A stretch of 18,708 nt of DNA, from NCBI GenBank assembly GCA_021782055.1, contig JAJXVP010000036.1:1-18708 (forward strand), read 5' to 3'. The stretch comes from a bacterium. Lineage in GTDB: Bacteria > Spirochaetota > Spirochaetia > JABEVK01. The translations under genes were made by a program, and so were the position numbers. Under the pieces are notes generated by a model, which was given only the letters and a program-made list of their open reading frames with translations, was not told the origin of the DNA and made no database searches. Positions 2,456 to 18,457 of this stretch are shown here, in pieces (positions within the stretch are counted from its first letter, which is position 1; each line of letters starts with the position of its first letter).

Positions 2456-3007
2456 ATGCATGAAATGACCATTGAAGATTGTAAATCTCTGATGAGCAGC
2501 CCCATTTATCAGCAATTACTACAGGATTTTTGCAGACGTAGGCCATGTGGCCCCAAAGTAAAAAAGGCTTTGCTTGAGGCTTTCATGCGAAAGATAAAGG
2601 AAGAGAAGCCAAATTTCTTTGAGAATTATACCGACTTTGACCTTAGAAATATCGATTTTCTTCAGCCCGTGCTTTGGGATCTGCTAAGTTCTGAGCTAGC
2701 AAAGTATTTTAACGGCACGAAGGACGATGTGGATATTCCCTTACGCAGGGGCTTTCTCGAACATCAATATTTGATGATCGTGGGCAGTAAAGGTTCCGAT
2801 CCTCTTGGTGATGAGATGGCTAATTTGTTTTCTGCCTGGCTGTTGTTTCAACACAGGGATTGGGTTAAAACGCTTAAAACCTTTGCCATGCACCAAGGAA
2901 ATCTCGGATTTTGGAAGAGTGATGTAGAAGGTTTTGTTAAGGACTTCCATGCTTCAGGACTTTATGAGGGGTGCTTTTCGGACCGATCGAAAGGCGGAAG
3001 TTGTTAG
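2456..3007 (+). CDS. Unrecognised helical protein, first gene of the operon
   Basis: About 183 residues are encoded from the ATG at 2456 (weak GGGA ribosome site 7 bases upstream; ATG 2465 is an alternative). The protein appears soluble and mostly helical. Landmarks are MSSPIYQQLLQDFCRRR, NIDFLQPVLWDLLSSELAKY and EMANLFSAWLLFQHRDWVK. No catalytic motif is recognised. Its 3' end overlaps the next gene (2949) by 59 bases. The overlapping frame looks more protein-like near the end than this one does (SDRSKGGSC here), so a frameshift joining the two into one longer protein is a real alternative. Its position suggests an accessory or regulatory subunit, but no function is assigned. Confidence 0.55.
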   Translation: MHEMTIEDCKSLMSSPIYQQLLQDFCRRRPCGPKVKKALLEAFMRKIKEEKPNFFENYTDFDLRNIDFLQPVLWDLLSSELAKYFNGTKDDVDIPLRRGFLEHQYLMIVGSKGSDPLGDEMANLFSAWLLFQHRDWVKTLKTFAMHQGNLGFWKSDVEGFVKDFHASGLYEGCFSDRSKGGSC

Positions 3008-3215
3008 CCGATATTCGATAGGTCGATACCTAGATAATTCCCAGTTTCTGGAACTCTTCCAGAAAGGATGGATCGGGCGTACCTCCGTGGGGGCCTATTT
3101 GCTGAGTCGCTATGTTCAGGATCAACTTGGGAACGGCAACTCGGTGATTGTTGCGACGGTGCCTACCTCGTTTGGTGAAAGAGAGAGACGGCGACGACGA
3201 GGAGAAGCTCAATGA
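2949..3215 (+). CDS. Unrecognised small protein overlapping its neighbours
   Basis: The gene encodes 88 residues from the ATG at 2949, with AAGGA (2939-2943) 5 bases upstream. The core, SRYSIGRYLDNSQFLELF then GWIGRTSVGAYLLSRYVQ, looks like real protein. The end is a run of arginines and glutamates (GERERRRRRGEAQ) that looks atypical. It overlaps the preceding gene by 59 bases in another frame, and the next gene starts at an ATGA overlap (3212-3215). It could be an independent gene or the C-terminal part of the 2456 gene after a frameshift at about 2940-2960. No family is recognised. Confidence 0.5.
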   Translation: MLQDFMRGAFRTDRKAEVVSRYSIGRYLDNSQFLELFQKGWIGRTSVGAYLLSRYVQDQLGNGNSVIVATVPTSFGERERRRRRGEAQ

Positions 3216-3526
3216 AGCCACCTTGCCAGCCCATGGCTGACTTGAAACCCAGCCGAAGTCCCGTCAGCAACAATAAACTTAAGCACATTTTGCAAATCAA
3301 ACTCGGAGAGTTTGTGATTGTAACTCGGCGTGAAATAGACGTGAAGCTAAACGGGGGAGAGGACGTGGTGCACCCCGGGAGCTTGTGCGAGAGAGAGACT
3401 GGATCGACCCTGTTTCTCATGCGCTTGGACACGGAGTCCTGGTACCAGTTCAACGAAAAATACCCTGCTTTCATCAACGACAAAATCTTTATTCTATGCT
3501 ACTATTTTAAGAACATTTTACAATAA
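3212..3526 (+). CDS. Unrecognised small protein carrying the 51-bp repeat
   Basis: The gene encodes 104 residues. The ATG at 3212 overlaps the previous stop (ATGA) and has a strong ribosome site GAGGAG (3199-3204) 7 bases upstream, so independent translation is plausible. The middle, IKLGEFVIVTRREIDVKL then ESWYQFNEKYPAF, is strand-rich and very weakly recalls the beta-roll of cyclic-nucleotide-binding domains; this is not strong enough to name it. Codons 30-46 are the 51-bp repeat shared with 1929-1979. It ends 11 bases before the helicase gene. Confidence 0.5.
   Translation: MKPPCQPMADLKPSRSPVSNNKLKHILQIKLGEFVIVTRREIDVKLNGGEDVVHPGSLCERETGSTLFLMRLDTESWYQFNEKYPAFINDKIFILCYYFKNILQ
3300..3350. 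repeat. 51-bp direct repeat, right copy
   Basis: This copy is identical to 1929-1979 and lies in frame inside the gene at 3212-3526. It contains about one and a half of the 22-bp units that are tandemly multiplied in the left copy, so this copy is probably the source. Recombination between the two copies would delete 1371 bp, including the operon's likely promoter and first two genes. Confidence 0.9.
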
Positions 3527-3537
3527 GCGGTAAAACG

Positions 3538-6500
3538 ATGAGTTCTACTTCCATTCGAGATAACCATAACCATGGTACAGTTGGCGATTTCTTAAAGGAA
3601 CATGTTAAAATCGGGTCCCAGGTCTCGATTGTATCGGCTTACTTCACAATATATGCCTACCACCAGCTTAAGGGTCAGTTAGATAAAATTGAAGGTTTAC
3701 GTTTTCTTTTTGGCGAACCAACATTTATCAAAGCGATAGATCCTGACAAGGTTGAAACCAAACAGTTTCAAATCGAAGATTCATCGCTGGTCATTCCCGT
3801 GGAAAATAGGCTTTCCCAGAAGGCAATCGCTCGTGAATGCAAAGAATGGTTGCGGAACAAAGCGGAAATACGCTCCATGGTCAAGTCCAATTTCCTACAC
3901 GGAAAACTTTATCATATTCTTCAAAGCAATGGTGTAGAAAAAGCGATTTCGGGAAGTTCTAACTTTACTGTTAATGGGCTAGGCCTTGGTGGAAATAAAA
4001 ATATTGAGTTAAACCTAGTGGTTGATTCAGATCGAGACCGTGAAGAGTTGAGGAAATGGTTTGACAGTCTTTGGAACGATTCGACGGGTTTGGTGGAAGA
4101 CGTCAAAGGAGAAGTCCTACAGTATTTAGATCAGCTGTACACAGAGAACTCCCCTGAATTTATTTATTTCAAAACTTTATTTCATGTATTCGAAAGTTTT
4201 CTTGATGAAAGCACGGAAGGTGGACTTCTTAATGAACGGACCGGATTTTTTGATTCTGGTATATGGAATGCGCTTTATGACTTTCAAAAGGATGGAGTCA
4301 AGGGTGCAATCAATAAGATTTTAAAACACAACGGTTGCATCATTGCTGATTCAGTAGGTCTGGGCAAAACCTTCGAAGCCTTGGCTGTTATCAAATATTT
4401 TGAATTGCTCAACCAAAGGGTTCTGGTGGTCTGCCCCAAAAAATTGTCGGGTAACTGGACAATCTACCAGGCTACTCAGAACCATTCGTTGAATCCTTTC
4501 CCACAAGACCGGTTTGCCTATACAGTACTATACCATACAGACATGGGTAGGCTTTCTGGAACCTCGGATGCTAATGGTGTTGACCTCGAAAGCTTCAATT
4601 GGGGTGCTTATGACCTTGTTGTTATCGATGAATCCCATAATTTTAGGGGCAACCCTATAGAAAAAGCCCGTGAAGATGGAACTACGACTATGAACAGGGC
4701 GATGTGGCTCTTAGAAAAAGTGATCAAATCGGGTGCTAAAACGCGGGTACTTATGTTATCGGCGACACCTGTCAATAACACATTGAAAGACCTTCGTAAC
4801 CAGATTGCTTTTATCACTGAAGGGAAGAATGACGCTCTCGAGGCAAGTTGCGGCATACGCAATGTCTCGCAGACTTTGCAGAATGCTCAGACTCATTTTA
4901 CGAATTGGGCAGACCCCAAGAAAAACCCCGACCGTACGCTCAAACAGCTCCTTGAGAAACTTGATTCGGGCTTTTTCAAGATTCTCGACGAATTGACCAT
5001 TGCACGTTCACGAAAACACATCAAGAGCTTTTATAACTTGACTACTATCGGTAGCTTTCCCGTCCGGGAAAAGCCCCTGTCTCTATATCCCGATATCGAC
5101 CTTACACAGAGGTTTCCCTCGTATGATAGGCTCAACAAACAGATACTTCGCTACAAGTTAGCAGTGTTTAACCCGTCGTCTTACATCAAACCTGAGTTTG
5201 AAGCCAAGTACGAGGCCATGGAGGGTGCAGAATATCTGAACTTTCGGCAGAAGGATCGAGAAAATACCTTGATCGCCATGATGAAGGTTAATTACCTCAA
5301 ACGTTTGGAAAGTTCGATTGAAGCTTTTGAAGTTTCTCTCGATCGGACCATCAAAAAGATAGAAGACCTGGAAAAGCGGATTGCTGAGTATCTCAAAACC
5401 CACAGCAATTCCGAAGGCGTCTTGGTCGCCGATGAACCTGATTTAGAGGAAATGGAATCCGAAGACTTCGATGCCGATATATGGAAAGTTGGCAAGAAAC
5501 TTAAGTTTGATTTTGTTGACCTTGATTTAGAGCGCTGGTTGGGCGACTTAAAGTCAGACAAGGATGAACTGATTGACCTTTACAACAACGCCGCCTCGGT
5601 TACCATCGAACGTGACGCAAAGTTGGCCGAACTGAAGAAACAGATTGAGGCGAAGCTTACCCGACCTTTTAACGGCGAGAATCGAAAAATCCTCATCTTT
5701 ACGGCTTTTGCTGATACTGCCCAGTACCTCTACAGTGCATTGGAGTCGTGGTATCGGACCACCTTTCACAGAGAATGCGCGTTGGTATGTGGTTCCTTTA
5801 CCAAAACGAGTTTGGGACGTAATGATTTCGACTCTATCTTGATGAACTTTTCGCCCGTGTCCAAAAAACGATCTCAGATGAAGATGAGTTTACAAGGTGT
5901 TGAAATTGACCTTTTGATTGCCACGGATTGTATTAGTGAGGGGCAGAATCTTCAGGACTGTGACCTTCTGATTAACTATGACATTCACTGGAATCCCGTG
6001 CGTATCATTCAACGGTTTGGGCGTATTGACCGCTTGGGAAGTCTCAACAAAACAATTCGCCTGATCAACTTCTGGCCTACACGAGACCTGGATGCGTATA
6101 TCAATTTAAAGGAAAGAGTAGAGGCTCGCATGGCCCTGGTTGACGTCACAGGCACTGGCGAAGATAACATTCTGAATGCTGAACAGTTGCAAGAGCTAGT
6201 CTCGGAAGATCTGAAATACCGCAACAGACAGCTCAAGCGATTGCAAGAGGAAGTTCTCGACCTAGAAGATATGGATGCTTCTGTGTCGCTGACAGACTTT
6301 TCTCTTGACGATTTTCGCATGGAGCTTCTGCGATTCCTTGAGGAAAATAGACGAAAACTGGCACAGTCACCTTTTGGGCTTTATGCCCTAGTCCCTACCC
6401 CAAAGGGGCAGGAATTTAGCCAAACTGAAAAAGACATAATAAAGCCAGGAGTTATATTCTGCTTACGCCAAAAGGCCGTTGTAGCAAGAGCTGAAGAAGT

Positions 6501-6852
6501 GAACCCCCTGTCACCTTATTTTCTGGCCTATGTACGAGAGGACGGCTCGGTGAGGTACAATTTCACCCAGCCAAAGCAAATTCTTGAAATTATGCGCTTG
6601 TTATGCCAGGGTGTAGCATCGCCCCATGCCGCTTTGTGTGATGCCTTCAGCATTGAAACAGATGATGGGAGCAAAATGGATAAGTACAGTGACTTGCTCA
6701 AAAAAGTAGCAAATGAAATAGTCAGGATCCACCAAAAACGAGAGGCTGGTAGACTTGTCACAGGTGGGCGAGGTGCTGTCCTCCTTCCCCAGATGGATCA
6801 AGTGACACACCTAGACCAACTTGAGTTGATTACCTGGTTGATTATTAAATAG
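3538..6852 (+). CDS. PLD-like domain fused to SNF2-type helicase (DrmD-like)
   Basis: This is a 1104-residue DNA translocase/nuclease candidate. Residues 1-200 form a phospholipase-D-like domain with HGK (H121, K123) followed by SGSSNF (138-143) and an NIELN segment, a single HKD-like site. Residues 250-470 are the first RecA lobe: LYDFQKDGV, Walker A DSVGLGKT (271-278), DESH (364-367) and LSATPVNN. A long charged, coiled-coil-prone insert follows at about 530-720. The second lobe has KILIFTAFADTAQY, ATDCISEGQN and motif VI IQRFGRIDRLGS (about 824-835). The C-terminal 250 residues are unassigned. The domain order resembles SNF2-like helicases of defence loci, including DrmD of class 1 DISARM; that specific family call is inference. 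The gene is 11 bases after the preceding gene, and a micro-gene starts 8 bases after its TAG. Confidence 0.9.
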   Translation: MSSTSIRDNHNHGTVGDFLKEHVKIGSQVSIVSAYFTIYAYHQLKGQLDKIEGLRFLFGEPTFIKAIDPDKVETKQFQIEDSSLVIPVENRLSQKAIARECKEWLRNKAEIRSMVKSNFLHGKLYHILQSNGVEKAISGSSNFTVNGLGLGGNKNIELNLVVDSDRDREELRKWFDSLWNDSTGLVEDVKGEVLQYLDQLYTENSPEFIYFKTLFHVFESFLDESTEGGLLNERTGFFDSGIWNALYDFQKDGVKGAINKILKHNGCIIADSVGLGKTFEALAVIKYFELLNQRVLVVCPKKLSGNWTIYQATQNHSLNPFPQDRFAYTVLYHTDMGRLSGTSDANGVDLESFNWGAYDLVVIDESHNFRGNPIEKAREDGTTTMNRAMWLLEKVIKSGAKTRVLMLSATPVNNTLKDLRNQIAFITEGKNDALEASCGIRNVSQTLQNAQTHFTNWADPKKNPDRTLKQLLEKLDSGFFKILDELTIARSRKHIKSFYNLTTIGSFPVREKPLSLYPDIDLTQRFPSYDRLNKQILRYKLAVFNPSSYIKPEFEAKYEAMEGAEYLNFRQKDRENTLIAMMKVNYLKRLESSIEAFEVSLDRTIKKIEDLEKRIAEYLKTHSNSEGVLVADEPDLEEMESEDFDADIWKVGKKLKFDFVDLDLERWLGDLKSDKDELIDLYNNAASVTIERDAKLAELKKQIEAKLTRPFNGENRKILIFTAFADTAQYLYSALESWYRTTFHRECALVCGSFTKTSLGRNDFDSILMNFSPVSKKRSQMKMSLQGVEIDLLIATDCISEGQNLQDCDLLINYDIHWNPVRIIQRFGRIDRLGSLNKTIRLINFWPTRDLDAYINLKERVEARMALVDVTGTGEDNILNAEQLQELVSEDLKYRNRQLKRLQEEVLDLEDMDASVSLTDFSLDDFRMELLRFLEENRRKLAQSPFGLYALVPTPKGQEFSQTEKDIIKPGVIFCLRQKAVVARAEEVNPLSPYFLAYVREDGSVRYNFTQPKQILEIMRLLCQGVASPHAALCDAFSIETDDGSKMDKYSDLLKKVANEIVRIHQKREAGRLVTGGRGAVLLPQMDQVTHLDQLELITWLIIK

Positions 6853-6860
6853 GATAGGTC

Positions 6861-7031
6861 ATGAATATTGAAATGAGTCGACAGGCCGTAAATGCCACTC
6901 GTGAAGCCCTAGGCGATTTTGACCTTTGCTTTTTGAATGGAAAAAGTGCCGATCCTTGGCAAGCCGAAATCGAGGTACGCAAAGTCATTTTCGATCGGCA
7001 CGACACCCCTCAAGCAGGTATTGCGATATGA
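6861..7031 (+). CDS. Micro-gene of 56 codons between helicase and methyltransferase
   Basis: The ATG at 6861 follows the helicase stop by 8 bases and has AGGATAGG just upstream as a ribosome site. The product starts MNIEMSRQAVNATREALGDF and ends with TGA at 7029-7031, overlapping the next ATG (ATGA). The composition is protein-like (EIEVRKVIFDRHD) but no family is recognised. The sealed spacing on both sides is the main argument that it is real. A frameshift from the following micro-gene is possible but less likely, since both have proper starts. Confidence 0.55.
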   Translation: MNIEMSRQAVNATREALGDFDLCFLNGKSADPWQAEIEVRKVIFDRHDTPQAGIAI

Positions 7032-7225
7032 CACAGCGCGAAGAAGCTAAGGCCTGGTTGAGCTTTGCTCAACAGCACTGCCTCGTCCTTACTGGGTATG
7101 GAGCTTTGGTCCGGTATCTCTTTCAGCTCGAAAGACGTGATGATCAAGTTTATCAGGCTGTCAAGTTAGCTACAGAAGTCTTAGAAATTTTCAAACAGAT
7201 ACTCGCTAAGCGAGGAGACGAATGA
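7028..7225 (+). CDS. Micro-gene of 65 codons, coupled to the methyltransferase
   Basis: The start at ATG 7028 is chosen because it overlaps the preceding stop (ATGA); the open frame upstream of it does not look like protein. The product begins MTQREEAKAWLSFAQQHCLV and appears to be a small helical bundle (YQAVKLATEVLEIFKQIL). Its stop TGA (7223-7225) overlaps the methyltransferase ATG (7222-7224). Its last codons hold both the methyltransferase ribosome site and a small hairpin. A role as helicase/methyltransferase partner or as a translational coupler is inferred from position only. Confidence 0.6.
   Translation: MTQREEAKAWLSFAQQHCLVLTGYGALVRYLFQLERRDDQVYQAVKLATEVLEIFKQILAKRGDE
7202..7217 (+). 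promoter_or_regulatory. Hairpin overlapping the methyltransferase ribosome binding site
   Basis: CTCGC (7202-7206) pairs with GCGAG (7210-7214) around TAA. The paired GCGAG shares bases with the Shine-Dalgarno GAGGAG (7212-7217), 4 bases before the methyltransferase ATG at 7222. A ribosome finishing the micro-gene would melt the hairpin, so methyltransferase translation may depend on translation of the micro-gene. Confidence 0.4.
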
Positions 7226-10200
7226 AAGACATTGAGGCCAAGCGAAAGATTATTGACGGATTAAAACTGTTTGCTGACACAAACCTAACGGGAGCCGGTT
7301 TGGCTTTTTTTAGAACTCTCGGTTACACCACAGAACGACAAGCTCCTATGGCAGAAAAGACGTCAAAATTCTTTATTGAAAATTACGCCCAAGCCTCGGA
7401 AAAAACTTTCGATGCTAACAAAGCTTTATGTCAGGATTGGAAGTATGTCGACCTATTATTCCAGCTCACCAAAGATGATGTTAGCTCTCAGAATGAGCTT
7501 TTTGACACGGGACAGGTCGACGACACGATCATGGAAAGCTACCTCTTTTTTGTTATTGGCTTGGCCAAGGCAAGCTACAATCGGGGTGAACTGGCGAGAA
7601 TCACACGTGAAATTAACAAAGTCTTTCCTATGCCGGTACTGATTTTATTTGCGTACGGCGAAAAAGTAACACTTTCGATCATTGATCGTCGTCTGAATAA
7701 AAAAGATGAAATGAGGGACGTGCTAGAAAAGAAAGTCACCCTCATCAAAGACGTAAGAATCGTTACCCCACATAGAGCTCACGTCGAGATCTTATTTGAT
7801 CTTTCGTTTTTTGAATTGGAGAGGCAACATCAAGTACGCAACTTTGTGGAACTGCATAAGGCTTGGCGGTCTACCCTCGATATCAGTGCATTGAACAAGA
7901 AATTCTATCGGGAGCTTTCGAACTGGTACTTTTGGGCCATGGGGAGGGTAAGCTTTCCCGACGACGTAGAAAGTGATGGCGAAGTACGCAATGCTACGAA
8001 TCTTATTAGACTTATCACACGGATCATCTTTGTATGGTTCATTCGTGAGAAACAGCTCGTCGACGACCGATTGTTCGAGCGCCGAGAAATGGAAAAGATT
8101 TTAAAGGGTTTCTGTGCGAGCGAGCATTCAAACGTGTACTACCCAGCCATTCTGCAAAACTTGTTTTTTGGAACGTTGAATCAAAAAATGAATGAGCGTG
8201 GCTTTGCCGAAGAAGGAGATTTTAAAACCAATCGAGGCCAATACGGTGTCAAGAACCTTTATCGACACGCAGGGTTTTTTCAGATATCACCAGCAGAAGC
8301 CGTTTCCCTTTTTAAAGACGTTCCCTTTTTGAATGGCGGGCTTTTTGACTGTCTCGACAAAGAAGACGACCAAAAGGTTGTACGTTACGTGGACGGTTTT
8401 AGTCGCAACCCGAAAAAGCAGGCCTTCGTTCCCGATGCACTCTTTTTTAGCGATGAGCATGAAGTGGACTTGAATACTATTTATGGAACTCACGATCGGA
8501 CCTACCTTGTCAAAGGCCTTTTTAACATTCTTTCAGCTTACAAGTTCACTATTGCCGAGAATACGCCTGTGGAAGAAGAAGTTGCCCTTGACCCCGAACT
8601 ATTGGGCAAGGTTTTTGAAAACCTTTTGGCCAGTTACAACCCCGAGACCAAAACCACAGCCCGGAACAAAACGGGAAGTTTTTATACCCCGCGTGAAATT
8701 GTCGATTACATGGTTGATGAATCGCTGAAGGGGTACTTACAGCAAAAACTACAAGATGAATTAAAAATACCCGAAGCCGATGCCAAAGCGGGGCTCGATA
8801 TTTTGTTTATGTACACCGAACAAGAACATGCCTTTAATCCAGTTGAACGCGACTGTCTGATTAGAGCCATAGACGGCCTTAAAATTCTTGACCCGGCGTG
8901 TGGTTCGGGGGCTTTCCCCATGGGTATTTTGCACAAGTTGGTTTACATCCTTCACAAGCTCGACCCAAGAAACGAATTGTGGAAGCAGAGACAATTAAGT
9001 AAGGCCAGCACTCTCGACGATGCTGGCATCCGTGAACGGACTATGGACGATATTGAGCAGGCCTTTGCCAACAATGAACTTGACTACGGACGAAAATTGT
9101 TCCTCATTGAAAACTGTGTCTTTGGGGTCGATATTCAGCCTATCGCCGTGCAGATTGCGAAACTTAGGTTTTTCATTTCGCTGGTCATCGACCAAAACAA
9201 AAAGTCCGGTACCGAAAACCTTGGTATTCGCAGTTTACCCAACCTTGAAACTAAGTTTGTCGCCGCCGATAGCCTCATTGCTCTGAAGAAGCCCGACGGG
9301 GGACTGCTTCGCAACCCTGAAATTGATCGGCACGAAGTGGCACTTAAGGAATTAAGGCATACCTATTTTAGCGCACGATCACGCCACGAAAAGTTGGCTG
9401 TGCAAGACAAGGACAAGGCTCTTCGCCATACCATCGCCCAGTTGTTAGAAGCCGATGGGATGTCGCATCAAGACGCTAGCTTGGTGGCCAGTATTGACCC
9501 CTACGACCAAAATGCCAGTGCCCCCTTTTTTGACCCCGAGTGGATGTTTGGCATGACTGGTGGTTTTGATGTGGTGATCGGCAACCCCCCTTATGTTCAG
9601 ATTCAGAGTTTTTCGGGCAAACCAGAACAGGAACGCTGGGAAGCGCAGAGCTACAAAACCTATGCCAGAACGGGCGATATCTATTGTCTGTTCTATGAAC
9701 GGGGGTTCAGCCTGTTGGCAAGCAAAGGTAGCCTTTGTTACATTACCAGCAACAAATGGATGAGGGCCGGTTACGGCAAGGCGATGCGTAAGTTCTTTTT
9801 AAACCAGGGTACGCTTCGTAGCTTGATTGACTTTGGCGACTCTCCCCTTTTCGAAAATGCGACAACCTACACCAACATCGCCTTGTGGAGTGCTAGAAAG
9901 GGTTTGGGACCGGTTTTAGTTTACGATCTATCGCACAGCTACCAGGCCGAGACCAGTCTGTCAGAAGTGCTCAGCCTACAGGAACCCGGTGAGGCTTTGT
10001 TCACGGACGAAAGTTTTGTGATCGCTGCGGGGGCCCAAGCCGCCGTCAAGAAGCGTATTGAAGCTGTGGGCAAACCACTCAAGGACTGGGATATCCATAT
10101 ATACCGGGGCGTTCTCACTGGCCTAAACGAGGCCTTTATCATCGACCAAGCCAAATACGACGAGCTGGTAGCCGCCGACCCCAAAAGTGCCGAAATACTC

Positions 10201-11037
10201 AAGCCTATTCTGCGAGGGCGGGATATTAAACGGTATAAGGCCGAGTGGGCGGGCTTGTACGTGATCTTGGCTAAACTAGGTTCTCACAATTATCTGGAAA
10301 GGGAATATCCTGCTGTGTTCCAGCACCTCAGCCGGTTTGAAACCTCCCTTCGTTTACGAGGACAATGCCGTTATACCAGCTCTGGCAAACCCAAACGTAA
10401 CGCAGATTTTCCTGGGCAACACCACTGGCTGGAACTGGACAACAATCCTAAAGACGACTACTTAGCCGAGTTCGGGAAGGAGAAGGTGACCTGGGGCAAT
10501 TTGGCTCAAGCACCTCAATTTACCTTGGTACCACCGGGTATGTTTGTTAACGCTCCTAGCCCCCTTATCACGCCCTACACAGGCTTTCTTTTGGCCGTCT
10601 TAAATTCAACCGTGGTGAAATGGTTTCTGGCTTCAATTTGCATTGAACGTTCTGGCGGGTTCTTTGAATATAAGCCAATGTACGTGGAACAAATCCCCAT
10701 CCCCTCTATTTCCTCCGACTTACAAAAGCCCTATGAAGTTCTCGTCGACTGCATCCAGTTCGCCCATGCGCATAGTTTGACTGGCGAGGCCAAGGTTCTT
10801 GAGGCCGTGGTCGACGTGATGGTTTTTGGGCTGTACTTTGAGGAAGACATGAAGTCAGCAGGGTGTTACATAAACGACCGGGTGGCCGAAGTGGCGCTGG
10901 TCGAGGAATTGTCCATCACCGAGGTGATGAAACTGGTAATCGACCTGCAAAATGATGGACGGATTGCGTCTGCCTTGGTTAACTGCCAGACCGTCGGAGT
11001 GGTGAAGACGGTGCTAGGTCTGGACGTCCATGGGTGA
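7222..11037 (+). CDS. Eco57I-type N6-adenine DNA methyltransferase (type IIG/DrmMI-like)
   Basis: This 1271-residue protein is predicted to transfer a methyl group from S-adenosylmethionine to the exocyclic amine of adenine in a specific DNA site. The SAM-binding motif I is DPACGSGAFPMGI (from residue 557). The catalytic motif IV is GNPPYVQ (N788-Y791), typical of N6-adenine enzymes. TFYTPREIVDYM-like wording (SFYTPREIVDYM) precedes motif I, and the end has a TaqI-like target-recognition region with VEQIPIPSI. The first 400 residues resemble the N-terminus of large Eco57I-family proteins, but I cannot point to a PD-(D/E)xK nuclease site. It may therefore be modification-only, with cleavage supplied by the PLD helicases. 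It starts inside the micro-gene stop (ATGA) and overlaps the next gene by 8 bases. Confidence 0.92.
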   Translation: MKDIEAKRKIIDGLKLFADTNLTGAGLAFFRTLGYTTERQAPMAEKTSKFFIENYAQASEKTFDANKALCQDWKYVDLLFQLTKDDVSSQNELFDTGQVDDTIMESYLFFVIGLAKASYNRGELARITREINKVFPMPVLILFAYGEKVTLSIIDRRLNKKDEMRDVLEKKVTLIKDVRIVTPHRAHVEILFDLSFFELERQHQVRNFVELHKAWRSTLDISALNKKFYRELSNWYFWAMGRVSFPDDVESDGEVRNATNLIRLITRIIFVWFIREKQLVDDRLFERREMEKILKGFCASEHSNVYYPAILQNLFFGTLNQKMNERGFAEEGDFKTNRGQYGVKNLYRHAGFFQISPAEAVSLFKDVPFLNGGLFDCLDKEDDQKVVRYVDGFSRNPKKQAFVPDALFFSDEHEVDLNTIYGTHDRTYLVKGLFNILSAYKFTIAENTPVEEEVALDPELLGKVFENLLASYNPETKTTARNKTGSFYTPREIVDYMVDESLKGYLQQKLQDELKIPEADAKAGLDILFMYTEQEHAFNPVERDCLIRAIDGLKILDPACGSGAFPMGILHKLVYILHKLDPRNELWKQRQLSKASTLDDAGIRERTMDDIEQAFANNELDYGRKLFLIENCVFGVDIQPIAVQIAKLRFFISLVIDQNKKSGTENLGIRSLPNLETKFVAADSLIALKKPDGGLLRNPEIDRHEVALKELRHTYFSARSRHEKLAVQDKDKALRHTIAQLLEADGMSHQDASLVASIDPYDQNASAPFFDPEWMFGMTGGFDVVIGNPPYVQIQSFSGKPEQERWEAQSYKTYARTGDIYCLFYERGFSLLASKGSLCYITSNKWMRAGYGKAMRKFFLNQGTLRSLIDFGDSPLFENATTYTNIALWSARKGLGPVLVYDLSHSYQAETSLSEVLSLQEPGEALFTDESFVIAAGAQAAVKKRIEAVGKPLKDWDIHIYRGVLTGLNEAFIIDQAKYDELVAADPKSAEILKPILRGRDIKRYKAEWAGLYVILAKLGSHNYLEREYPAVFQHLSRFETSLRLRGQCRYTSSGKPKRNADFPGQHHWLELDNNPKDDYLAEFGKEKVTWGNLAQAPQFTLVPPGMFVNAPSPLITPYTGFLLAVLNSTVVKWFLASICIERSGGFFEYKPMYVEQIPIPSISSDLQKPYEVLVDCIQFAHAHSLTGEAKVLEAVVDVMVFGLYFEEDMKSAGCYINDRVAEVALVEELSITEVMKLVIDLQNDGRIASALVNCQTVGVVKTVLGLDVHG

Positions 11038-13711
11038 ATTAGGTAGAGAGGTTGAAATGGCTACGATAAGAACAACAAGCGACTCTTTCCCGGCAGGTTC
11101 CACTTGGGTTCGGGCCGACTTTCACCTCCATACCAAGGCCGACAAGGAGTTCAACTACACAGGCGAGGACAATAGTTTTGTAAAGGCCTACATCGAAGCC
11201 TTGAAGAAGGCAGAGATCAAAGTGGGGTTGATCACAAACCACAACAAGTTCGACAAAGGTGAGTTTGCCGCTCTGCGAAAAGGGGCGATGAGCGAGGGTA
11301 TTTTACTGCTTCCCGGTGTGGAACTGTCGGTCAATGACGGGGCTCATGGGATACATATGCTCATCGCCTTCGGCGACGAATGGATTGCCGAAGGCTCTGA
11401 CCACATCAATCCTTTTCTCCAAACGGTGTTCCAAGGAAAAACGCCCGTGGAATATGAAAACGAGAATGGGCGAACCAAGGAAGGGTTGGTTACCATTCTC
11501 GAAACCCTCAAGTCCTACCATAAAGATTTTTTCCTCATTTTTGCCCACGTGGAGGACCGATCAGGTCTTTGGACTGAATTAGATGGTGGGAGACTGGAAG
11601 AACTTGGAAGAAATGAAGACTTCAAAGATTTTACTCACGGGTTTCAAAAAGTCCGAACCCATGACCTGCCGGAGAGAAAATGCCGTGTCAAAGTTGAGAA
11701 ATGGCTCGGATGGTACCCTGCCGAAGTTGAAGGAAGCGACTGCAAAAAAATCGAAGAAATCGGCAAAGGTGAGAAGTGTTATCTCAAAATCGGGGCTTTT
11801 CACTTTGAAGCGGTGAAGTTTGCCTTGCGCAACGCTACCAACCGCGTCGCAAAAGAGCCTAAGCAGCACAAGCGCTCCTACATCAAACGGCTCCGCTTCG
11901 ATGGCGGCACTCTCGATGGCCACGAGATTGAGTTCTCGACAGGACTGAATACCCTGATCGGAATTCGTGGTAGCGGCAAATCCTCTCTCATTGAGGCGAT
12001 TCGCTATGGGCTAGACGTTCCCTTTGGCGAAAAGCCCCAAGACGAGAAATACAAGAAGGACCTCGTTCCCCATACCCTAGGAAGTGGGGGTAAAATTACC
12101 ATCATCGCGGTTGATGGTTTTGGCCAAGAATATGAAGTTCGGCGAATCTGGGGGCATGGACCAGAGGTCTTTGTGGACGGACTCCGTCAGCCGGGGGTTT
12201 CGATTCGAGAAACCGTTATCAATAAACCCCTCTATTTTGGTCAAAAAGACCTTTCCAGTTCGGGCGAAGGGTTCGAAAAGGATCTTGTAGAAAAGTTGCT
12301 TGGATCTGCTGTCAGCGAAATTCGAGTCAAAATCGAATTACAAAAAGATCGTGTTCAACAAGTAGCTGGGCGATTTAACAAACTCAAAGACATAGCCACC
12401 AGAAGAGAAGAAAACCAACAAAAGAAGTTGGACGCTGAATTCAAATTCGAGCGTTACAAAAAATATGGTATGGAAGAAAAACTTCAGAAGCAAATGGACT
12501 TTGACACCGATGGGCGCAAGCTGAATGAGATTAACCAAGCCGTCGCAAATTTTGCAGAGTCCCTTTCAGGAATTCTGGTGGACTACGAAGATACGATCCG
12601 TAATAGCCTTCTCTACAAATCCAAACAGAACAGCAGCTTTTTTCTTGGTTATTTCGAGGTATTCAACCGAGTCATGGCACAGTTGGAAAGCGTTGTCTCG
12701 GCTGTCGCAAATCTCAAAAATATTCTCCCCGATTTGGAGAAGCAGAAAACAGATTTCGCCGGAATCTTGCAGAGCCTCAAGGAAGAATTTGCTACAACGG
12801 AACGCACGATCGCCGATGAGCTGAAAGCCGCTGGCGTTCCCGCTGTACGGCCCGACGAGTTTCGCCAACTCAGCAAAACGATTGAACAAGCCAAGGCGAT
12901 CATCGAGGAATTGGACAAAGAACAGAACAAATCCAATGCCATTTACCAAGAACTTCTGAAAGAAGTATCAGCCTTGAATGAGCTTTGGTACCAGGAGTTC
13001 AAGTTGATAGAGGCTGAGATGGCCAAGGTGAACTCCCACCATTCTTCCTTGGTAATCGAAGTGAAATTCAAAGATGACAAAGAGGCGTTCAAGGCGTTCC
13101 TTAAAAGCATGATGGGGGGAAGCAACATTCGAGACCTCACCTATGGGAGGATCGTTGATCAATTTATTGATCCGGTAGCGATTTTTCAAGAAAAAGCCAA
13201 AGTCGACGAACTTCTGGGAAATAGTGCAACGGTTTTTTGGCAGTACTTCTCGGATGCACTGGACACGTTTCTCGTCTGGCAGGTTCCAAATCGATTCCTA
13301 ATCAAGTACAAAGGCAAAGAACTCACCGAACATTCGCTTGGTCAACGCGCGTCTGCGCTGATTCTTTTTGTGCTAAGCCAGCGAGAGCATGACCTGATCG
13401 TTATAGACCAACCAGAAGATGACCTCGATAACCAGACGATCTATCAAGACGTCATCAAACTGGTAAATAAACTGAAAGTTGACACACAGTTTATCCTTGC
13501 CACCCATAACCCTAACTTTCCTGTCTTGGGAGATGCTGAGATGGTGGTGTCCTGCGAATACCTGAACGACCATATCGATGTTCAACTGGGAAGCATTGAT
13601 GATAAAAAAGTTCAAGAACGAATTGTAAATATTATGGAAGGCGGTGAAGAAGCCTTCAACCGCCGCAAGGAGATCTACGGAATATGGAAACCTCGGAACT
13701 TCTTGAAATAA
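11030..13711 (+). CDS. TrlF/Ppl-like protein: PHP hydrolase plus SMC/ABC-type ATPase
   Basis: This 893-residue protein joins two modules. Residues 25-180 are a PHP metal-dependent phosphoesterase domain: HLH (H32, H34), TNH (H71), PGVEL (E98), HGIHM (H109) and FAHVED (H173) are the expected metal ligands. From about 300 there is an SMC/Rad50-like ATPase with Walker A GIRGSGKS (311-318), a coiled-coil middle (about 430-720), signature SLGQRAS, Walker B LIVIDQPEDD (from 789) and H-loop ATHN. This matches the TrlF family and the single-gene defence protein Ppl. The substrate is unknown; nucleotide or nucleic-acid hydrolysis gated by the ATPase is inferred. The start at 11030 overlaps the methyltransferase by 8 bases. 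The ATG at 11057, with AGAGAGG upstream, is an equally fair choice and keeps every motif. Confidence 0.9.
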   Translation: MGELGREVEMATIRTTSDSFPAGSTWVRADFHLHTKADKEFNYTGEDNSFVKAYIEALKKAEIKVGLITNHNKFDKGEFAALRKGAMSEGILLLPGVELSVNDGAHGIHMLIAFGDEWIAEGSDHINPFLQTVFQGKTPVEYENENGRTKEGLVTILETLKSYHKDFFLIFAHVEDRSGLWTELDGGRLEELGRNEDFKDFTHGFQKVRTHDLPERKCRVKVEKWLGWYPAEVEGSDCKKIEEIGKGEKCYLKIGAFHFEAVKFALRNATNRVAKEPKQHKRSYIKRLRFDGGTLDGHEIEFSTGLNTLIGIRGSGKSSLIEAIRYGLDVPFGEKPQDEKYKKDLVPHTLGSGGKITIIAVDGFGQEYEVRRIWGHGPEVFVDGLRQPGVSIRETVINKPLYFGQKDLSSSGEGFEKDLVEKLLGSAVSEIRVKIELQKDRVQQVAGRFNKLKDIATRREENQQKKLDAEFKFERYKKYGMEEKLQKQMDFDTDGRKLNEINQAVANFAESLSGILVDYEDTIRNSLLYKSKQNSSFFLGYFEVFNRVMAQLESVVSAVANLKNILPDLEKQKTDFAGILQSLKEEFATTERTIADELKAAGVPAVRPDEFRQLSKTIEQAKAIIEELDKEQNKSNAIYQELLKEVSALNELWYQEFKLIEAEMAKVNSHHSSLVIEVKFKDDKEAFKAFLKSMMGGSNIRDLTYGRIVDQFIDPVAIFQEKAKVDELLGNSATVFWQYFSDALDTFLVWQVPNRFLIKYKGKELTEHSLGQRASALILFVLSQREHDLIVIDQPEDDLDNQTIYQDVIKLVNKLKVDTQFILATHNPNFPVLGDAEMVVSCEYLNDHIDVQLGSIDDKKVQERIVNIMEGGEEAFNRRKEIYGIWKPRNFLK

Positions 13712-14841
13712 TTGGCCGTGGCGAGGACGGCAAGCACCAGTTCAAGGCAAATATTTCGAATGGCGGTTCTCTTGCCGCAGAAATCGTAGCTTTCTCAAAC
13801 TCAGGCGGTGGTCAGATCTTCATTGGCGTCAACGATGATGGAACGAGATCTGGGTTGACCGCCGAAAATCTAACCGGTAAACATGGCCTCAACCAACTCA
13901 TCTCCAGTGTCGCCTCCGATCAGGTCAAACCTGCTGTCAACGTCTCGACAGAGAACATTAAGCTCTTAGACGGACTGGTTGTCGTTGTTTCTGTCCAAGA
14001 TGGCATCAGCAAACCCTACTTTGACAATGCTGGAGTCATTTGGGTTAAGTCTGGTGCGGACAAGCGAAAGGTGACTTCCCGAGAAGAAATGCAACGGATG
14101 TTTCAGAAAGCCGGATTGGTTCATGGTGATGAGATTGCTGCAAACGGAGTGACGACGGCTGACATCGATTTGGACTATTTTCGGCGATTCTATCAAGCCG
14201 AGTATGGCGAGGAGTTGGCCCAGTCGGGAATCCCGCTCCCTCAGCTACTAGAGAACATGAACCTTGCCTCTGAAGGGGTTTTGAATATTGCAGGTTCTCT
14301 ATTATTTTCGCGGACTCCTAATGTTCGCCTTCCTGCCTTTATTGTAAAAGCCGTCGCTTTTCCGGGGACTACGATCGAGGAATCGAACTATCTTGATAGT
14401 AAGGACTTAACGGGGAAAATTGCCGACATTTTTCAGAAAACTATCAATTTTATCATTTCAAACCTCAGGTCAGTTCAGGGGGAAGGGGGATTCAATACAT
14501 TGGGCGAAGCCGAAATCCCACGCGAGGCCCTGGAAGAACTAGTTGCTAACGCACTTATTCACCGTGACTACTTTATTTCTGCCCCAATCCGCGTTTTCGT
14601 GTTTCAGGACAGGGTAGAAATAATCAGTCCTGGGCACTTACCCAACAACCTCACCATCCAAAATGTCCTCAAGGGAAACTCTAATATCAGAAACCCAATT
14701 TTGGCATCCTTTGCAACACGGATTCTTCCCTATCGTGGCCTCGGTAGTGGCATCAGGAGAGCTATTAAGGCATATCCCCAAATTTCTTTGGTGGATGACC
14801 GAGAAGGAAATCTATTTATTGTGACTCTTTCTAGAAGGTGA
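13684..14841 (+). CDS. Schlafen/AlbA_2-type protein with GHKL-like C-terminal domain
   Basis: This 385-residue protein has an AlbA_2 (Schlafen-like) nucleic-acid-binding fold at the N-terminus: HQFK (18-21), then AFSNSGGGQIFIGVNDDG (36-53). The C-terminal half carries ELVANALIHRDY (N289, H293) and YRGLGSGIRRA, typical of the RecG-related GHKL ATPase-like domain often paired with AlbA_2. Such proteins are annotated as transcriptional regulators or as RNases/effectors; the sequence does not decide which. It overlaps the PHP-ATPase gene by 28 bases, with ribosome site AAGGAGA (13667-13673), so the two are almost certainly co-translated and probably work together. Confidence 0.88.
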   Translation: METSELLEIIGRGEDGKHQFKANISNGGSLAAEIVAFSNSGGGQIFIGVNDDGTRSGLTAENLTGKHGLNQLISSVASDQVKPAVNVSTENIKLLDGLVVVVSVQDGISKPYFDNAGVIWVKSGADKRKVTSREEMQRMFQKAGLVHGDEIAANGVTTADIDLDYFRRFYQAEYGEELAQSGIPLPQLLENMNLASEGVLNIAGSLLFSRTPNVRLPAFIVKAVAFPGTTIEESNYLDSKDLTGKIADIFQKTINFIISNLRSVQGEGGFNTLGEAEIPREALEELVANALIHRDYFISAPIRVFVFQDRVEIISPGHLPNNLTIQNVLKGNSNIRNPILASFATRILPYRGLGSGIRRAIKAYPQISLVDDREGNLFIVTLSRR

Positions 14842-14904
14842 TAAATGCGGTTTTCCGAACCGAAAACACAGATGTGTTGACAGGCGATACAACCTTGCAC
14901 AGGT

Positions 14905-14942
14905 CATTGAAATCGTCGTTAAATAGAAAATGAATTTCAATG
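14905..14942. promoter_or_regulatory. 9-bp inverted repeat in the only large gap of the locus
   Basis: CATTGAAAT (14905-14913) and ATTTCAATG (14934-14942) are perfect inverted copies 20 bases apart. GTCGTTAA also recurs directly at 14915-14922 and 14942-14949. The element lies in the 136-base gap between the AlbA_2 gene and the SF1 helicase gene. A perfect TTGACA (14877-14882) and TTGCAC (14895-14900) precede it; TTAAAT (14919-14924) could serve the latter as a poor -10. A repressor operator over a secondary promoter is the simplest reading. Confidence 0.4.
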
Positions 14943-14977
14943 TCGTTAATGATGCCTGGCACCTCTGAGGTTGTGAT

Positions 14978-17900
14978 ATGGTCGAAATTAAAAAAAGAAT
15001 TGAACAACTCTCCGCTTTGGAAAAGGACCCCAAAAAGCACCTCTTGTACTATCGGCACGCCCTAGCTGATAGCGAACGCATGGATATTAACGCCAACACC
15101 GTCCAACAAAAAGGAGGCGTGTTCCCTCACGGAGGTAAGCCCTCTGATAGTCTGTTACAAAAACTTTTTACGGGCATCCCAAAAGAGACGACAAGCCTTG
15201 AAATCTTTTACTGCCCTTTGGCGATTCACGCCCGTAGGCAAGACGGGATTTCTTTCGATTCATCTGTTATCTACCCCTATTGGATACCCGCTGTCGTTGA
15301 CCGATCGGGTGGGTTCGGGCCTCAGCAAAAGGATTCGCTGCTTCCTTGGCTCATACGAGGAGTCCTTGCGCCTAACGACTACCAACCAAAGGAATACCCT
15401 GTTCTCTCAACGGTAGAAAAAGTTGATCAAGTGGGAACAAAACTTCAGTTATCTCGGGATTCCTGGACAAGTTATCTTGAGGGTGCCCTTGCTTATTTTC
15501 AAGAGCAAGTTGGTCAAGACATTTCAACCTTGTCTCTTGAAGGTTGGGCGGTTTCACACGACCAAATTGCCGTCATTCCCGCTGAGTTAAAAGGCACGAC
15601 ACACCAGTTAATTCAAGTTTGTGACCATTTTTTAGAACGGTCTGGAGGAAATCTCCCTGGCACGCTATCGTCCTTGCTCCTTCCCAGAACCAAGCCGCCC
15701 CTTGCTGTTGACGATCCTGACAGGGTCATAGTGGCTTCTAGCCACCACGGACAAATGGCCAACCGTTTTCCTTTAAGCCCTTCACAACGTGTTAGCTTAG
15801 CCTTGTTCAACTCTATGGCCACGCATCAAGTCTTTGCCGTCAATGGGCCTCCGGGAACAGGCAAAACAACGTTAATTCAAAGTATCGTAGCCGATGTTCT
15901 TGTCAAAGCCTTTCTTTCCAAAGGTAAGCCGCCGGTGATCGTAGGAACCTCGGTCAATAATAAAGCGATTACTAATATCCTCGACAGCTTCGCTTCTGTG
16001 ACCCCTAGCGAGTCTTTACGAACTGGCTTGAATGAGCGTTGGCTCCCACATTTGGAGGGCCTTGGTCATTATCTTAAAGCTCAATTTGCTGAAACGCAGG
16101 ACCAAGTTCTTAATGCCGGGTATTGGGTTAGTACACCAGGCTCAAACGGGGACGATGCCTACCATTCCTACTGTTCGAAGCATTCGAAAACCGACTGTGA
16201 ACTTTATTTTATCAGCAAATTTCTTGACTATAGCAAGGTTCCCCAGGTTGGCAGTTTAGAAGCCTGCGCCAAGATCATTAAAGAGAACGTCATTCGTCTC
16301 ACTGCGTCCCTAGACAAGCTGTCTCAAAGTATTAAAGTTGTCAGAGATTTCATTGCTCAGAATAACTGGCCAAAAAAGAACATCGCGACTTTGGGAACCC
16401 AGGTTGATGAAAAAATCGCTGCATTAGAAAGTAGACGCGCTGTTATTGACGCCTTGATTGAGCGTGAACACCTGCCCTTGCGACGCCCCTGGTTCCTGGT
16501 TCGATGGATAGAGCGCCTTCGGTTCGGGCATCCCCAAATTCGTTGGGCAAGAATCCAGTCGGAGCTCCTCACGACCTCCGATTCTTCGTTCAATTTTGAA
16601 AGTTCAGATTTCTATGGGCTAGCGAAAGAAGTTTGGAAATTTAGGCGACACCTCCTGCAAGAAAAGTTGACCTTGTACCGTTCGTGGCGAGAGGTTAAAC
16701 CTGACTTTGAACGCTTAATGCCCTATTTTGCTTCTGGTGAAGAAACCCCTGAATGGATTGAACAGGTTCAGAATAAGCTGGACTTAAAGGAACGGCACGA
16801 GGCTTTCTGGTGGGCTTTGCATGGTTTTGAGTGCCAGTGGCTCCTCCAACGCAGTGACGAAGCCTACGCGGCCCTGAACTCCGGACAGGCTCAAAGTACA
16901 CAGCGATGGGAACAGCGTTCTTATTTAACGCCCGTATTCGTGTCGACGCTTTTTTCTGTTCCTAATTTCTTTTCCTATACAAAAAAGACCCCTCAGGAAT
17001 CATGGTTAAAGTTTCCTTTGACCGACTGTATTGATCTTTTGATTGTTGACGAAGCCGGTCAGGTCGCGCCAGAATTGGGAGTTCCCGTCTTTGGTTTGGC
17101 TAAAAAAGCTTTGGTTGTCGGCGACGTTCGGCAACTGGAACCGATTTGGAGCCTACCAGCAAAGTCAATTGATTTTGCCAATAGCCAACGAGCTGGCCTC
17201 GTGAACAGTCGCCAGATTTACGAAGAGTGTTTTGAAAATTCGCAACGAAGTAGTGCCAATGGTAGCCTGATGGTTCTTGCTCAAGACGCCTCTGCTTACC
17301 TTTACCCTCCGCATTGGAAAGAAGCCGGTTCGCTTTTGGTAGAACATCGAAGGTGTGTTCCTGATATCATCGAATTTTGCAATCGCTTCGTGTATGAATC
17401 CCGTTTAGATATTAAGACAAAAGCCAAAGAATCGCTTTGGCCTGCCCTAGGGTATTGTCATATCGGCGGTGAGTCTAAAAAGGAATTCGGTTCACAGTCA
17501 AATCCTATCGAGGCTCAGGCTATCGCTACGTGGATTCAAAAAAATAAAGAAAAGCTCGTCAAAAAATATCAAACCGACCTTTCAGAGGTAATTGCCATTG
17601 TCACCCCGTTCAAGGGACAAAAAACAGCCATCACCAAGGCACTCAAGGACATGGGGGTTGAGGCGAATGCGATGGTGGTGGGAACCGTGCACTCGCTTCA
17701 AGGTGCCGAAAGGGCGATTGTGATTTTCTCGCCTGTCTATGGTCGAAATCATCAAAGTACCGATCTGTTTTTTAACCAGACGTACAACATGCTAAATGTT
17801 GCGGTTTCCCGTGCCAAAGATCACTTCTTTGTCTTTGGGAACATGTCCCTGTTTAGTCCAGCTTCATCAAATACTCCGGCTTCCAACCTCGGTCAACTGC

Positions 17901-18457
17901 TGTTCAAGGCACCGAGCAACGAACTTCTCAACGATTTTATTTTTGAAGAACCGCAGATTCCCTTTTTTGAGCAAGAGCCCATCGATCGCCTCGATGACCT
18001 TTCGCGGCATCGTAAAGCTCTGAAAAGGGCTTTTGAGATTGCGACGACACGTTTGGTTATCGTTTCACCATTTATTTCACAGGCCGCATTGCAAGCAGAC
18101 TCCATCGCGGAGCTTGTACAAAATGCGGTACAACGCCAGGTTGAGGTGCTTATTTACACAGATGCCCACCTTGATATTGTCGATGGGAAACTCAAACAAC
18201 AAGCGGCTGCAGGACGAAAAACTCTAGAAGACGCCGGTGCAAAGCTTAAAATTGTTTCTGGGATTCACAATAAGACCCTTATCATTGACCGTCAGGTATT
18301 CATAGAAGGTTCTTTCAACTGGCTCTCAGCAGTGCGGGATGAATCCAGTCCCTATCATAGGCATGAGACCTCTCTTGTCATTAAAGCACCATCCTGCGAA
18401 CGGTTTATCCTTCGTGCAGAAAATGAGTTGGGCCTTAACTCAAATGTTTCAAATTGA
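14978..18457 (+). CDS. Dna2/NAM7-type SF1 helicase with C-terminal PLD nuclease domain
   Basis: This 1159-residue protein is predicted to unwind DNA or RNA and cut it. GAGG (14967-14970) supports the start. Residues 1-270 are an unassigned N-terminal domain. Walker A is NGPPGTGKTT (from 289), followed by a long insert (about 350-640) interrupting the helicase core. Motif II is DEAG (691-694), followed by VVGDVRQLEPIW, VEHRRCVPDIIEF, VTPFKGQ, GTVHSLQGAE and NVAVSRAKDHFFVFG, all typical of the Upf1/Dna2 group. The last 160 residues are a phospholipase-D-like domain with a complete HKD site: H1097, K1099, D1104, then GSFN (1111-1114). There is one HKD, so a dimer would be needed for a full active site. 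The layout recalls the DUF4011-helicase-Vsr defence proteins (Hhe) with PLD in place of Vsr. Confidence 0.9.
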   Translation: MVEIKKRIEQLSALEKDPKKHLLYYRHALADSERMDINANTVQQKGGVFPHGGKPSDSLLQKLFTGIPKETTSLEIFYCPLAIHARRQDGISFDSSVIYPYWIPAVVDRSGGFGPQQKDSLLPWLIRGVLAPNDYQPKEYPVLSTVEKVDQVGTKLQLSRDSWTSYLEGALAYFQEQVGQDISTLSLEGWAVSHDQIAVIPAELKGTTHQLIQVCDHFLERSGGNLPGTLSSLLLPRTKPPLAVDDPDRVIVASSHHGQMANRFPLSPSQRVSLALFNSMATHQVFAVNGPPGTGKTTLIQSIVADVLVKAFLSKGKPPVIVGTSVNNKAITNILDSFASVTPSESLRTGLNERWLPHLEGLGHYLKAQFAETQDQVLNAGYWVSTPGSNGDDAYHSYCSKHSKTDCELYFISKFLDYSKVPQVGSLEACAKIIKENVIRLTASLDKLSQSIKVVRDFIAQNNWPKKNIATLGTQVDEKIAALESRRAVIDALIEREHLPLRRPWFLVRWIERLRFGHPQIRWARIQSELLTTSDSSFNFESSDFYGLAKEVWKFRRHLLQEKLTLYRSWREVKPDFERLMPYFASGEETPEWIEQVQNKLDLKERHEAFWWALHGFECQWLLQRSDEAYAALNSGQAQSTQRWEQRSYLTPVFVSTLFSVPNFFSYTKKTPQESWLKFPLTDCIDLLIVDEAGQVAPELGVPVFGLAKKALVVGDVRQLEPIWSLPAKSIDFANSQRAGLVNSRQIYEECFENSQRSSANGSLMVLAQDASAYLYPPHWKEAGSLLVEHRRCVPDIIEFCNRFVYESRLDIKTKAKESLWPALGYCHIGGESKKEFGSQSNPIEAQAIATWIQKNKEKLVKKYQTDLSEVIAIVTPFKGQKTAITKALKDMGVEANAMVVGTVHSLQGAERAIVIFSPVYGRNHQSTDLFFNQTYNMLNVAVSRAKDHFFVFGNMSLFSPASSNTPASNLGQLLFKAPSNELLNDFIFEEPQIPFFEQEPIDRLDDLSRHRKALKRAFEIATTRLVIVSPFISQAALQADSIAELVQNAVQRQVEVLIYTDAHLDIVDGKLKQQAAAGRKTLEDAGAKLKIVSGIHNKTLIIDRQVFIEGSFNWLSAVRDESSPYHRHETSLVIKAPSCERFILRAENELGLNSNVSN

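Follow-up and report, generated by a model that had tools for sequence, protein, structure and literature searches.

Nine open reading frames (ORFs) lie in a single direction between positions 2456 and 18457 of a spirochaete contig (JAJXVP010000036.1, assembly GCA_021782055.1), and the question arises whether they represent one defence system of a new kind or several systems lying side by side, and which role the two-gene pair trlF–trlG may play among them. The whole stretch analysed, 18,708 nucleotides long, is called "the window" below; loci and genomes gathered from elsewhere are numbered with L and G. A preliminary description of the window, made from the sequence alone, had proposed one undescribed nine-gene system. 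Our analysis resolves the region into three defence units lying together: a helicase and a methyltransferase (HEL and MT), the proteins TrlF and TrlG (TrlFG) and the single gene mkoC. The pair recurs in modification operons of seven kinds, and its presence in unrelated methylation-defence operons suggests that it is a portable module serving restriction systems as a "back-up alarm".

Gene content of the cluster

The five large genes of the cluster are arranged as follows:

3538..6852, + strand: HEL, 1104 amino acids; HKD/PLD (phospholipase D) nuclease with an SNF2 helicase
7222..11037, + strand: MT, 1271-amino-acid adenine methyltransferase; Eco57I and TaqI_C, with a weak N-terminal match to DUF4391
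11030..13711, + strand: TrlF, 893 amino acids; PHP domain and ABC ATPase
13684..14841, + strand: TrlG, 385 amino acids; Schlafen AlbA_2 (14–130) and HATPase_c_4 (300–365); 28-base overlap with trlF
14978..18457, + strand: MkoC, superfamily 1 (SF1) helicase with a C-terminal PLD; single-gene Mokosh type II

The preliminary description was correct in delimiting nine ORFs of one direction, each having positive codon log-odds in its own frame, and in the domains it assigned to the large genes (PLD with SNF2, Eco57I methyltransferase, PHP-type ABC ATPase, AlbA_2, SF1 helicase with PLD), although it overlooked the HATPase_c_4 domain joined to AlbA_2. The tight junctions that it reported hold for six of the eight, which are overlaps or gaps of no more than 11 bases (MT and TrlF overlap by 8 bases), and do not hold for the 175 bases between HEL and the small ORF g5 (73 counted from a TTG start) or for the 136 bases between TrlG and MkoC.

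Two of its family assignments were changed by profile searches. The PHP-ATPase, likened to Ppl, gives 146.2 bits with that family (NCBIfam cut-off 1000), whereas it passes the TrlF profile NF045780 with 542.9 bits (cut-off 350; profile positions 2–944 of 944), as did eight of eight other TrlF proteins tested. The last gene, described as Hhe-like, yields 23.8 bits with the PADLOC Hhe profile and 24.6 bits with the NCBIfam one (cut-off 2000), against 948.5 bits with PADLOC MkoC (residues 17–1150, profile positions 4–1131 of 1136). The suggestion that the PHP-ATPase and the AlbA_2 protein comprise a separate effector-like unit is supported by our data.

TrlFG inside modification operons

TrlFG pairs were collected through homology to the window rather than at random, out of plasmids, IMG/VR and four sets of genomes, and the 25 loci analysed are those with a trlF–trlG pair in which TrlF exceeds 600 amino acids. 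In 15 of them, TrlF has a methyltransferase gene on its own strand no more than 8 kb away. It was recognised in 13 loci by a motif, the same widened pattern being applied to loci and controls, and in L168 and L169, whose mod genes this pattern misses, by Pfam. The controls, representing a genome background, were forty 20-kb stretches from other parts of some of these genomes and from a few additional ones; together they hold a single methyltransferase-like ORF, and none of the 362 ORFs of at least 300 amino acids had such a methyltransferase. Clustering of TrlF at 80% identity resulted in 18 clusters, with at least one embedded member in 11 and embedded members only in nine (for the latter, Fisher p = 1.2e-13). 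Loci with TrlF cut by a contig end (L170, L190), with broken genes (L198, L200) or with no TrlF matched (L199) were left out of the 25, as were the solo TrlF loci L104, L105, L194, L195 and L196, where the motif revealed a same-strand methyltransferase in none of the five.

The host operons belong to type I, type III, BREX, Hma, MmeI-like, Eco57I IIG and HKD-SNF2 systems, and in the first four of these seven kinds the pair is located between core genes. Type I operons have the order hsdR-TrlFG-hsdS-AAA-hsdM on IncA and IncC plasmids and on one E. coli chromosome beside Tn7-like transposition genes, hsdM-hsdS-AAA-TrlFG-hsdR on a viral contig, and hsdM-hsdS-TrlFG-hsdR on a Vibrio plasmid (hsdS by reading only). 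Two TrlF lineages (L168/L169 and L187) show the type III order mod-TrlFG-res. The BREX host is arranged as PglX (two ORFs)-TrlFG-PglZ-BrxL and the Hma host as HmaA-TrlFG-ORF-HmaB-HmaC, with HmaA and HmaC cut by the contig ends. The pair follows MmeI-DEAD-T5orf172 in the MmeI-like host, an Eco57I/TaqI_C enzyme in the type IIG host, and HEL-MT in the window and in L167. L174, one of the 13 loci recognised by motif, is embedded by motif only; it is unclassified and stands outside the TrlF tree.

In the phylum of the Smithella locus, TrlG matches occur in 29 of 395 genomes (E ≤ 1e-40) and TrlF matches in 12 of 395 (E ≤ 1e-60); TrlF was matched in seven of 394 genomes from the phylum of the Chlorobi locus and in two of 369 from the class of G338. 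Twelve of 398 Pseudomonadota genomes have a TrlF match (E ≤ 1e-30), only that of G338 being close and nearly full length, which is too rare for statistics. The pair is present at no less than 80% coverage in 38 of 5426 complete E. coli genomes, and the IMG/VR scans revealed five HEL loci, two TrlF loci and one TrlG locus. In E. coli JJ2434 (L242), the type I restriction–modification (RM) system with TrlFG adjoins Tn7-like genes by yhiM on the chromosome, and its neighbourhood is as on the IncC plasmid pNDM-1_Dok01.

Movement of the pair between host systems

The TrlF tree, in which 14 rows are embedded and the window row has a long branch, separates the two proteins found behind HEL-MT: those of the window and of L167 are 42% identical, and holding them as one clade lowers the log-likelihood by 249 (approximately unbiased test, p = 1.8e-9). 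At the same time, close relatives occur in different hosts, since TrlF of the MmeI locus is 88% identical to that of the IncC type I locus, and TrlF of the Hma locus is 76% identical to that of the BREX locus. From the tree and these identities it follows that the pair has been transferred among host systems of different kinds; the simplest account gives it two separate entries into HEL-MT.

Proposed guard function of TrlFG

Of 26 pairs, 25 have trlF and trlG overlapping by 4–28 bases and one has them directly adjoining (starts were called mechanically), which points to translational coupling. All seven aligned TrlF proteins keep the ABC motifs, namely the Walker A, LGQR signature, Walker B and H-loop, and most of the PHP motif residues. 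TrlG has 54 matching plasmid records at E ≤ 1e-30, including 52 over at least 80% of its length, and is 57.9–62.8% identical over full length to the 47 best of them; one relative at 69% comes from a Treponema sp. A set of 48 homologs shows no variation at E14, D15, Q19 and K21 (residues 14–21, with the Q19 motif site, correspond to 13723–13746 in the window). Foldseek matched the predicted TrlG structure to the tRNase domains of SLFN13, SLFN14, SLFN11 and SAMD9 and, lower in the list, to the GHKL proteins RsbW/SpoIIAB.

The gene content, the recurrence of HEL-MT, the tight coupling of trlF with trlG and the recurrence of TrlFG within modification systems of seven kinds are established here directly. 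We give an even chance to the reading that TrlFG, with a putative RNase activity, trigger and guard role, is a transferable guard similar to PrrC and PARIS, whose response to a disturbance of the host restriction system would be growth arrest. In the window, as can be suggested from the domains, MT would methylate adenine in self DNA, while HEL would travel along unmarked DNA and cut it. TrlF would sense interference with the restriction complex or its DNA (a phage anti-restriction protein is one conceivable cause) and would then release TrlG, a predicted Schlafen-type RNase with a GHKL-type ATPase; TrlG would cut tRNA or other RNA, and growth would stop. More tentatively, TrlFG may be one guard module across type I, type III, IIG/MmeI-like, BREX, Hma and HKD-SNF2 systems, in which a shared signal (e.g., a translocase stalled or inhibited on unmethylated DNA) would elicit the Schlafen-type RNA cleavage. 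If true, the presence of one pair in seven kinds of modification system would imply a general interface or signal.

Guarding of restriction enzymes with "suicide" modules is represented in bacteria by PrrC and PARIS, both of which have been named RM guardians (PMC12707154). The toxic RNase gene of PrrC is linked to a restriction operon, which silences it, and this operon is invariably of type Ic, while RloC is linked to type I or III systems in eight of 73 cases (PMC2610378). TrlFG resembles PrrC with EcoprrI in the proposed guard logic and differs from it in having two genes, Schlafen and PHP-ABC domains, and seven kinds of host instead of type Ic only. With PARIS (AriA ABC ATPase and AriB TOPRIM), it shares an ABC ATPase and a separate nuclease gene; however, TrlFG lacks TOPRIM, its effector is a Schlafen AlbA_2 protein with a GHKL-type ATPase, and its ABC ATPase bears a PHP domain. 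PARIS was also rejected as a candidate for the window, where no TOPRIM (AriB) occurs among the Pfam matches of the proteins. The closest published neighbourhood is that of the Schlafen RNases beside BREX and BR (Hma) systems, which similarly combine an AlbA_2 protein with a histidine-kinase-type ATPase (PMC12839542); PHP does not occur in that text, and our loci extend the picture by the TrlF partner and by hosts of type I, type III and IIG. By title and abstract, in a search that most subscription papers lay outside, we found no paper treating TrlFG as a restriction guard. A viral contig from IMG/VR (L241, 5875–16034) has a TrlG-like protein without TrlF in a BREX-like locus, between a PglX-like ORF and an 864-amino-acid ORF followed by a BrxL-like ORF. 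The solo TrlF of L194 (IMG/VR, 5054–11118) is situated behind ORFs that on reading only resemble DNA methyltransferases, one of them a cytosine-C5 enzyme. Copies in which trlF, trlG or both are broken occur on plasmids of Bergeyella and E. coli (the latter IncC; L198 and L200) and in the HEL-MT locus L167.

The pair is known from the trlR-trlF-trlG operon (TRL) of Photorhabdus laumondii, in which trlG mutation or deletion of the operon allows growth at 36 °C, while no trlF mutations arose (PMC7554251). The growth block in Photorhabdus is consistent with a toxic TrlG, and the guard reading would newly explain this unexplained heat-growth phenotype. The window pair shares with TRL the TrlF family, the adjoining position of trlF and trlG, and the TrlG domain limits (14–130 and 300–365, compared with 14–128 and 298–365 in PMC7554251); it differs in following a restriction unit, whereas the Photorhabdus pair is known for heat growth. 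We found no trlR-like regulator, as none of the small ORFs of the window matches a regulator family in Pfam, PADLOC or NCBIfam, and the 79-amino-acid ORF upstream of TrlFG in L103, a Yersinia plasmid, gave no significant hit to the window (best E 7.6).

Alternative explanations

Several observations weigh against the guard reading. The structural model of TrlG is only fair (predicted local distance difference test, pLDDT, 74; predicted template-modelling score, pTM, 0.42), and its Foldseek TM-scores are low. All aligned proteins of the TrlG clade have Gln at position 19 with or without a TrlF partner, in contrast to the Glu of more distant AlbA_2 proteins and of the distant pair L174; Gln19 may mean a weaker or altered RNase, contrary to the simplest form of the model. 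The seven host kinds need at least eight changes on the tree of 14 embedded rows, where the minimum possible is six. Beyond the window, only L167 combines HEL-MT with TrlFG, and its trlG has an in-frame stop. The control stretches do not represent a defence-island background. The Photorhabdus operon is located between polA and dsbA and has a heat phenotype, and the main text of PMC7554251 is without the word "phage". Finally, ten of the 25 loci lack a same-strand methyltransferase within the sequence at hand, including those of a Pseudomonas syringae and a Yersinia ruckeri plasmid. Three of the ten (L149, L151 and L184) are cut by a contig end no more than 1 kb upstream, L184 is near an hsdS-like ORF, and L183 has a methyltransferase on the opposite strand. 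Because of these ten loci, TrlFG can probably stand alone.

The main rival to the guard model is, accordingly, a free-standing abortive-infection pair, clustering with restriction operons as defence genes do, which neither senses nor needs them. It agrees with the ten loci just described, with the existence of solo TrlF genes and with the example of MkoC, which shares the island, yet has relatives apart from annotated methyltransferases in four of four plasmid regions. We consider it the less likely of the two. Operons of the type I, type III, BREX and Hma kinds carry the pair flanked by core genes of equal orientation, and most of the junctions are overlaps or short gaps, an arrangement that would be rare under mere clustering and that has recurred in separate TrlF lineages; moreover, on a Yersinia plasmid the neighbours of the pair include small genes whose annotation is that of subunits of a type I methyltransferase (PMC7554251). 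Less probable still is that TrlFG serves as a working subunit of the restriction complex (an extra nuclease or a DNA-end ATPase) instead of its guard. PHP domains can act as nucleases or phosphatases, and ABC ATPases (SMC_N, AAA_23 or AAA_21) comprise eight of the ten proteins picked by size downstream of MT, which makes such enzymes frequent companions of MT; however, the host architectures are very different, their usual core genes are complete without TrlFG, and TrlFG seems to occur alone elsewhere.

The single nine-gene system of the preliminary description is the least probable of the alternatives and, in our view, nearly untenable. Its genes have one direction and mostly short junctions, and the order HEL-MT-TrlF-TrlG is found once more, in L167; however, the TrlF of L167 is a separate acquisition, and neither TrlF nor MkoC occurs in any of 88 HEL loci, of which only 38 of the 60 MT-bearing ones (by tblastn) extend at least 2.5 kb past MT and 34 at least 5 kb. 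These 88 loci, which reach up to 10 kb past HEL and are often shorter, yielded no match to g1 above 45 bits and likewise none to g2 and g3. A match to a known system, or a neighbourhood seen only here, had been named beforehand as speaking against a single system, and this is borne out in part: MkoC is, from end to end, a match to a single-gene system already described, and all five large genes were seen together only in the window, while four of the five recur in L167 and TrlFG is found in other restriction operons.

The HEL-MT unit

Apart from the putative guard, the cluster contains a helicase and a methyltransferase that together would represent an RM-like unit, as was anticipated by the preliminary description, which had compared them with DISARM and recognised the difference. 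HEL matches the PADLOC profile C3a139 "HKD+Snf2" with 401.8 bits over residues 22–1101, and its GLGKT, DESH, QRFGRIDR, HGK and GSSN columns are invariant across 24 aligned proteins. MT has Pfam scores of 143.1 bits for Eco57I, 42.8 for TaqI_C and 23.0 for the N-terminal DUF4391 (below the cut-off of 29.9), and it carries the DPACGSG and NPPY motifs; the motifs of both proteins are intact.

To the best 80 of 586 confirmed HEL relatives (84,980 species genomes) we added five IMG/VR loci, resulting in a set of 85, to which three plasmid loci bring the total of 88. MT is located downstream of HEL in 61 of the 85 loci, in 59 as an ORF (in some with intervening genes) and in L041 and L060 by tblastn. 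Of the 24 loci without MT, six are cut inside HEL or end within about 720 bases after it, and 18 (L067, L068, L080, L081, L083 and 13 others like them) belong to a clade further removed, with HEL identity of 44–46%. The next ORF in this clade encodes a separate DUF4391-type protein in 16 of 18 loci by tblastn, the Pfam check being made in L067 only. In that locus, mod and res of a type III system come next (Pfam), and similar-sized ORFs occur in the clade loci with enough sequence, so HEL with DUF4391 looks like an add-on to type III systems. In three plasmid records, HEL-DUF4391 has a methyltransferase adjacent or a few genes further. Since HEL-DUF4391 and a separate methyltransferase occur in relatives, the window MT has the appearance of a methyltransferase fused to a DUF4391-like part.

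The HEL-MT loci L004–L065 have two accessory slots with exchangeable genes, one between HEL and MT and the other after MT. In five loci tested, the first slot is occupied by YhcG/DUF1016 nucleases, KilA-N, Bro-N or Uma2, and in L004, L018 and L019 by AlbA_2, which was found in six of the 88 loci. The ten size-picked proteins downstream of MT include, besides the eight ABC-type ATPases (some merely close to the Pfam cut-off), one YhcG and one TIR-TPR protein.

Known systems of similar composition do not fit. For class 1 DISARM, the NCBIfam DrmD profile gives 149.6 bits (cut-off 610), no Pfam match to DUF1998 (DrmB) is present, and among the matches listed (best 25 of 50) DrmA appears only as a weak PADLOC cross-match to HEL of 73.9 bits. 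Hma and the Type-2 BREX-related (BR) systems share with the window an HKD-SNF2 helicase and an N6-methyltransferase; however, neither the DUF499 ATPase nor DUF3780 is among the Pfam matches of the nine window proteins, the window methyltransferase is of Eco57I/TaqI_C type with a DUF4391-like part, and HEL scores 74.6 bits as HmaA, compared with 1441 bits for the HmaA of L152.

The mkoC gene

Mokosh type II is a single protein with an SF1 helicase and a C-terminal PLD. The product of the ninth gene, in which Pfam recognises AAA_11/AAA_12 and PLDc_2, matches it over full length and shows no notable difference. Its plasmid relatives are away from any annotated methyltransferase in four of four regions viewed (with an incomplete gene table); these regions come from the top of 50 records, all partial matches, none of which covers 80% of the query. 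Since the PADLOC match is full length and the relatives stand apart from methyltransferases, MkoC is read as an independent Mokosh type II neighbour of TrlFG behind the 136-base gap.

Small ORFs and flanks

The remaining four ORFs of the cluster have no family over the cut-off in Pfam, PADLOC and NCBIfam profile searches:

2456..3007, + strand: g1, 183 amino acids; no known family; coding-like codon usage; possibly the first piece of a degenerate gene
2934..3215, + strand: g2, 93 amino acids, TTG start; 74-base overlap with g1; no family
3212..3526, + strand: g3, 104 amino acids; no family over the cut-off
7028..7225, + strand: g5, 65 amino acids from ATG (99 from TTG at 6926); 4-base overlap with MT; no family

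The three short overlapping ORFs at 2456–3526 have coding-like codons and may be the remains of one gene. The window holds 23 promoter-like sites (18.1 in shuffles, standard deviation 4.1) and 16 terminator-like sites (22.0, standard deviation 5.1), which we did not use as evidence. Upstream of the cluster, positions 3–1019 represent the 3′ end of a valyl-tRNA synthetase gene (valS), and a remnant of a lipoprotein similar to sulfatase-modifying factors lies on the opposite strand within 1–1902, both recognised by reading of the translations without a family search; near position 2000, the GC content drops from about 0.55 to 0.45.

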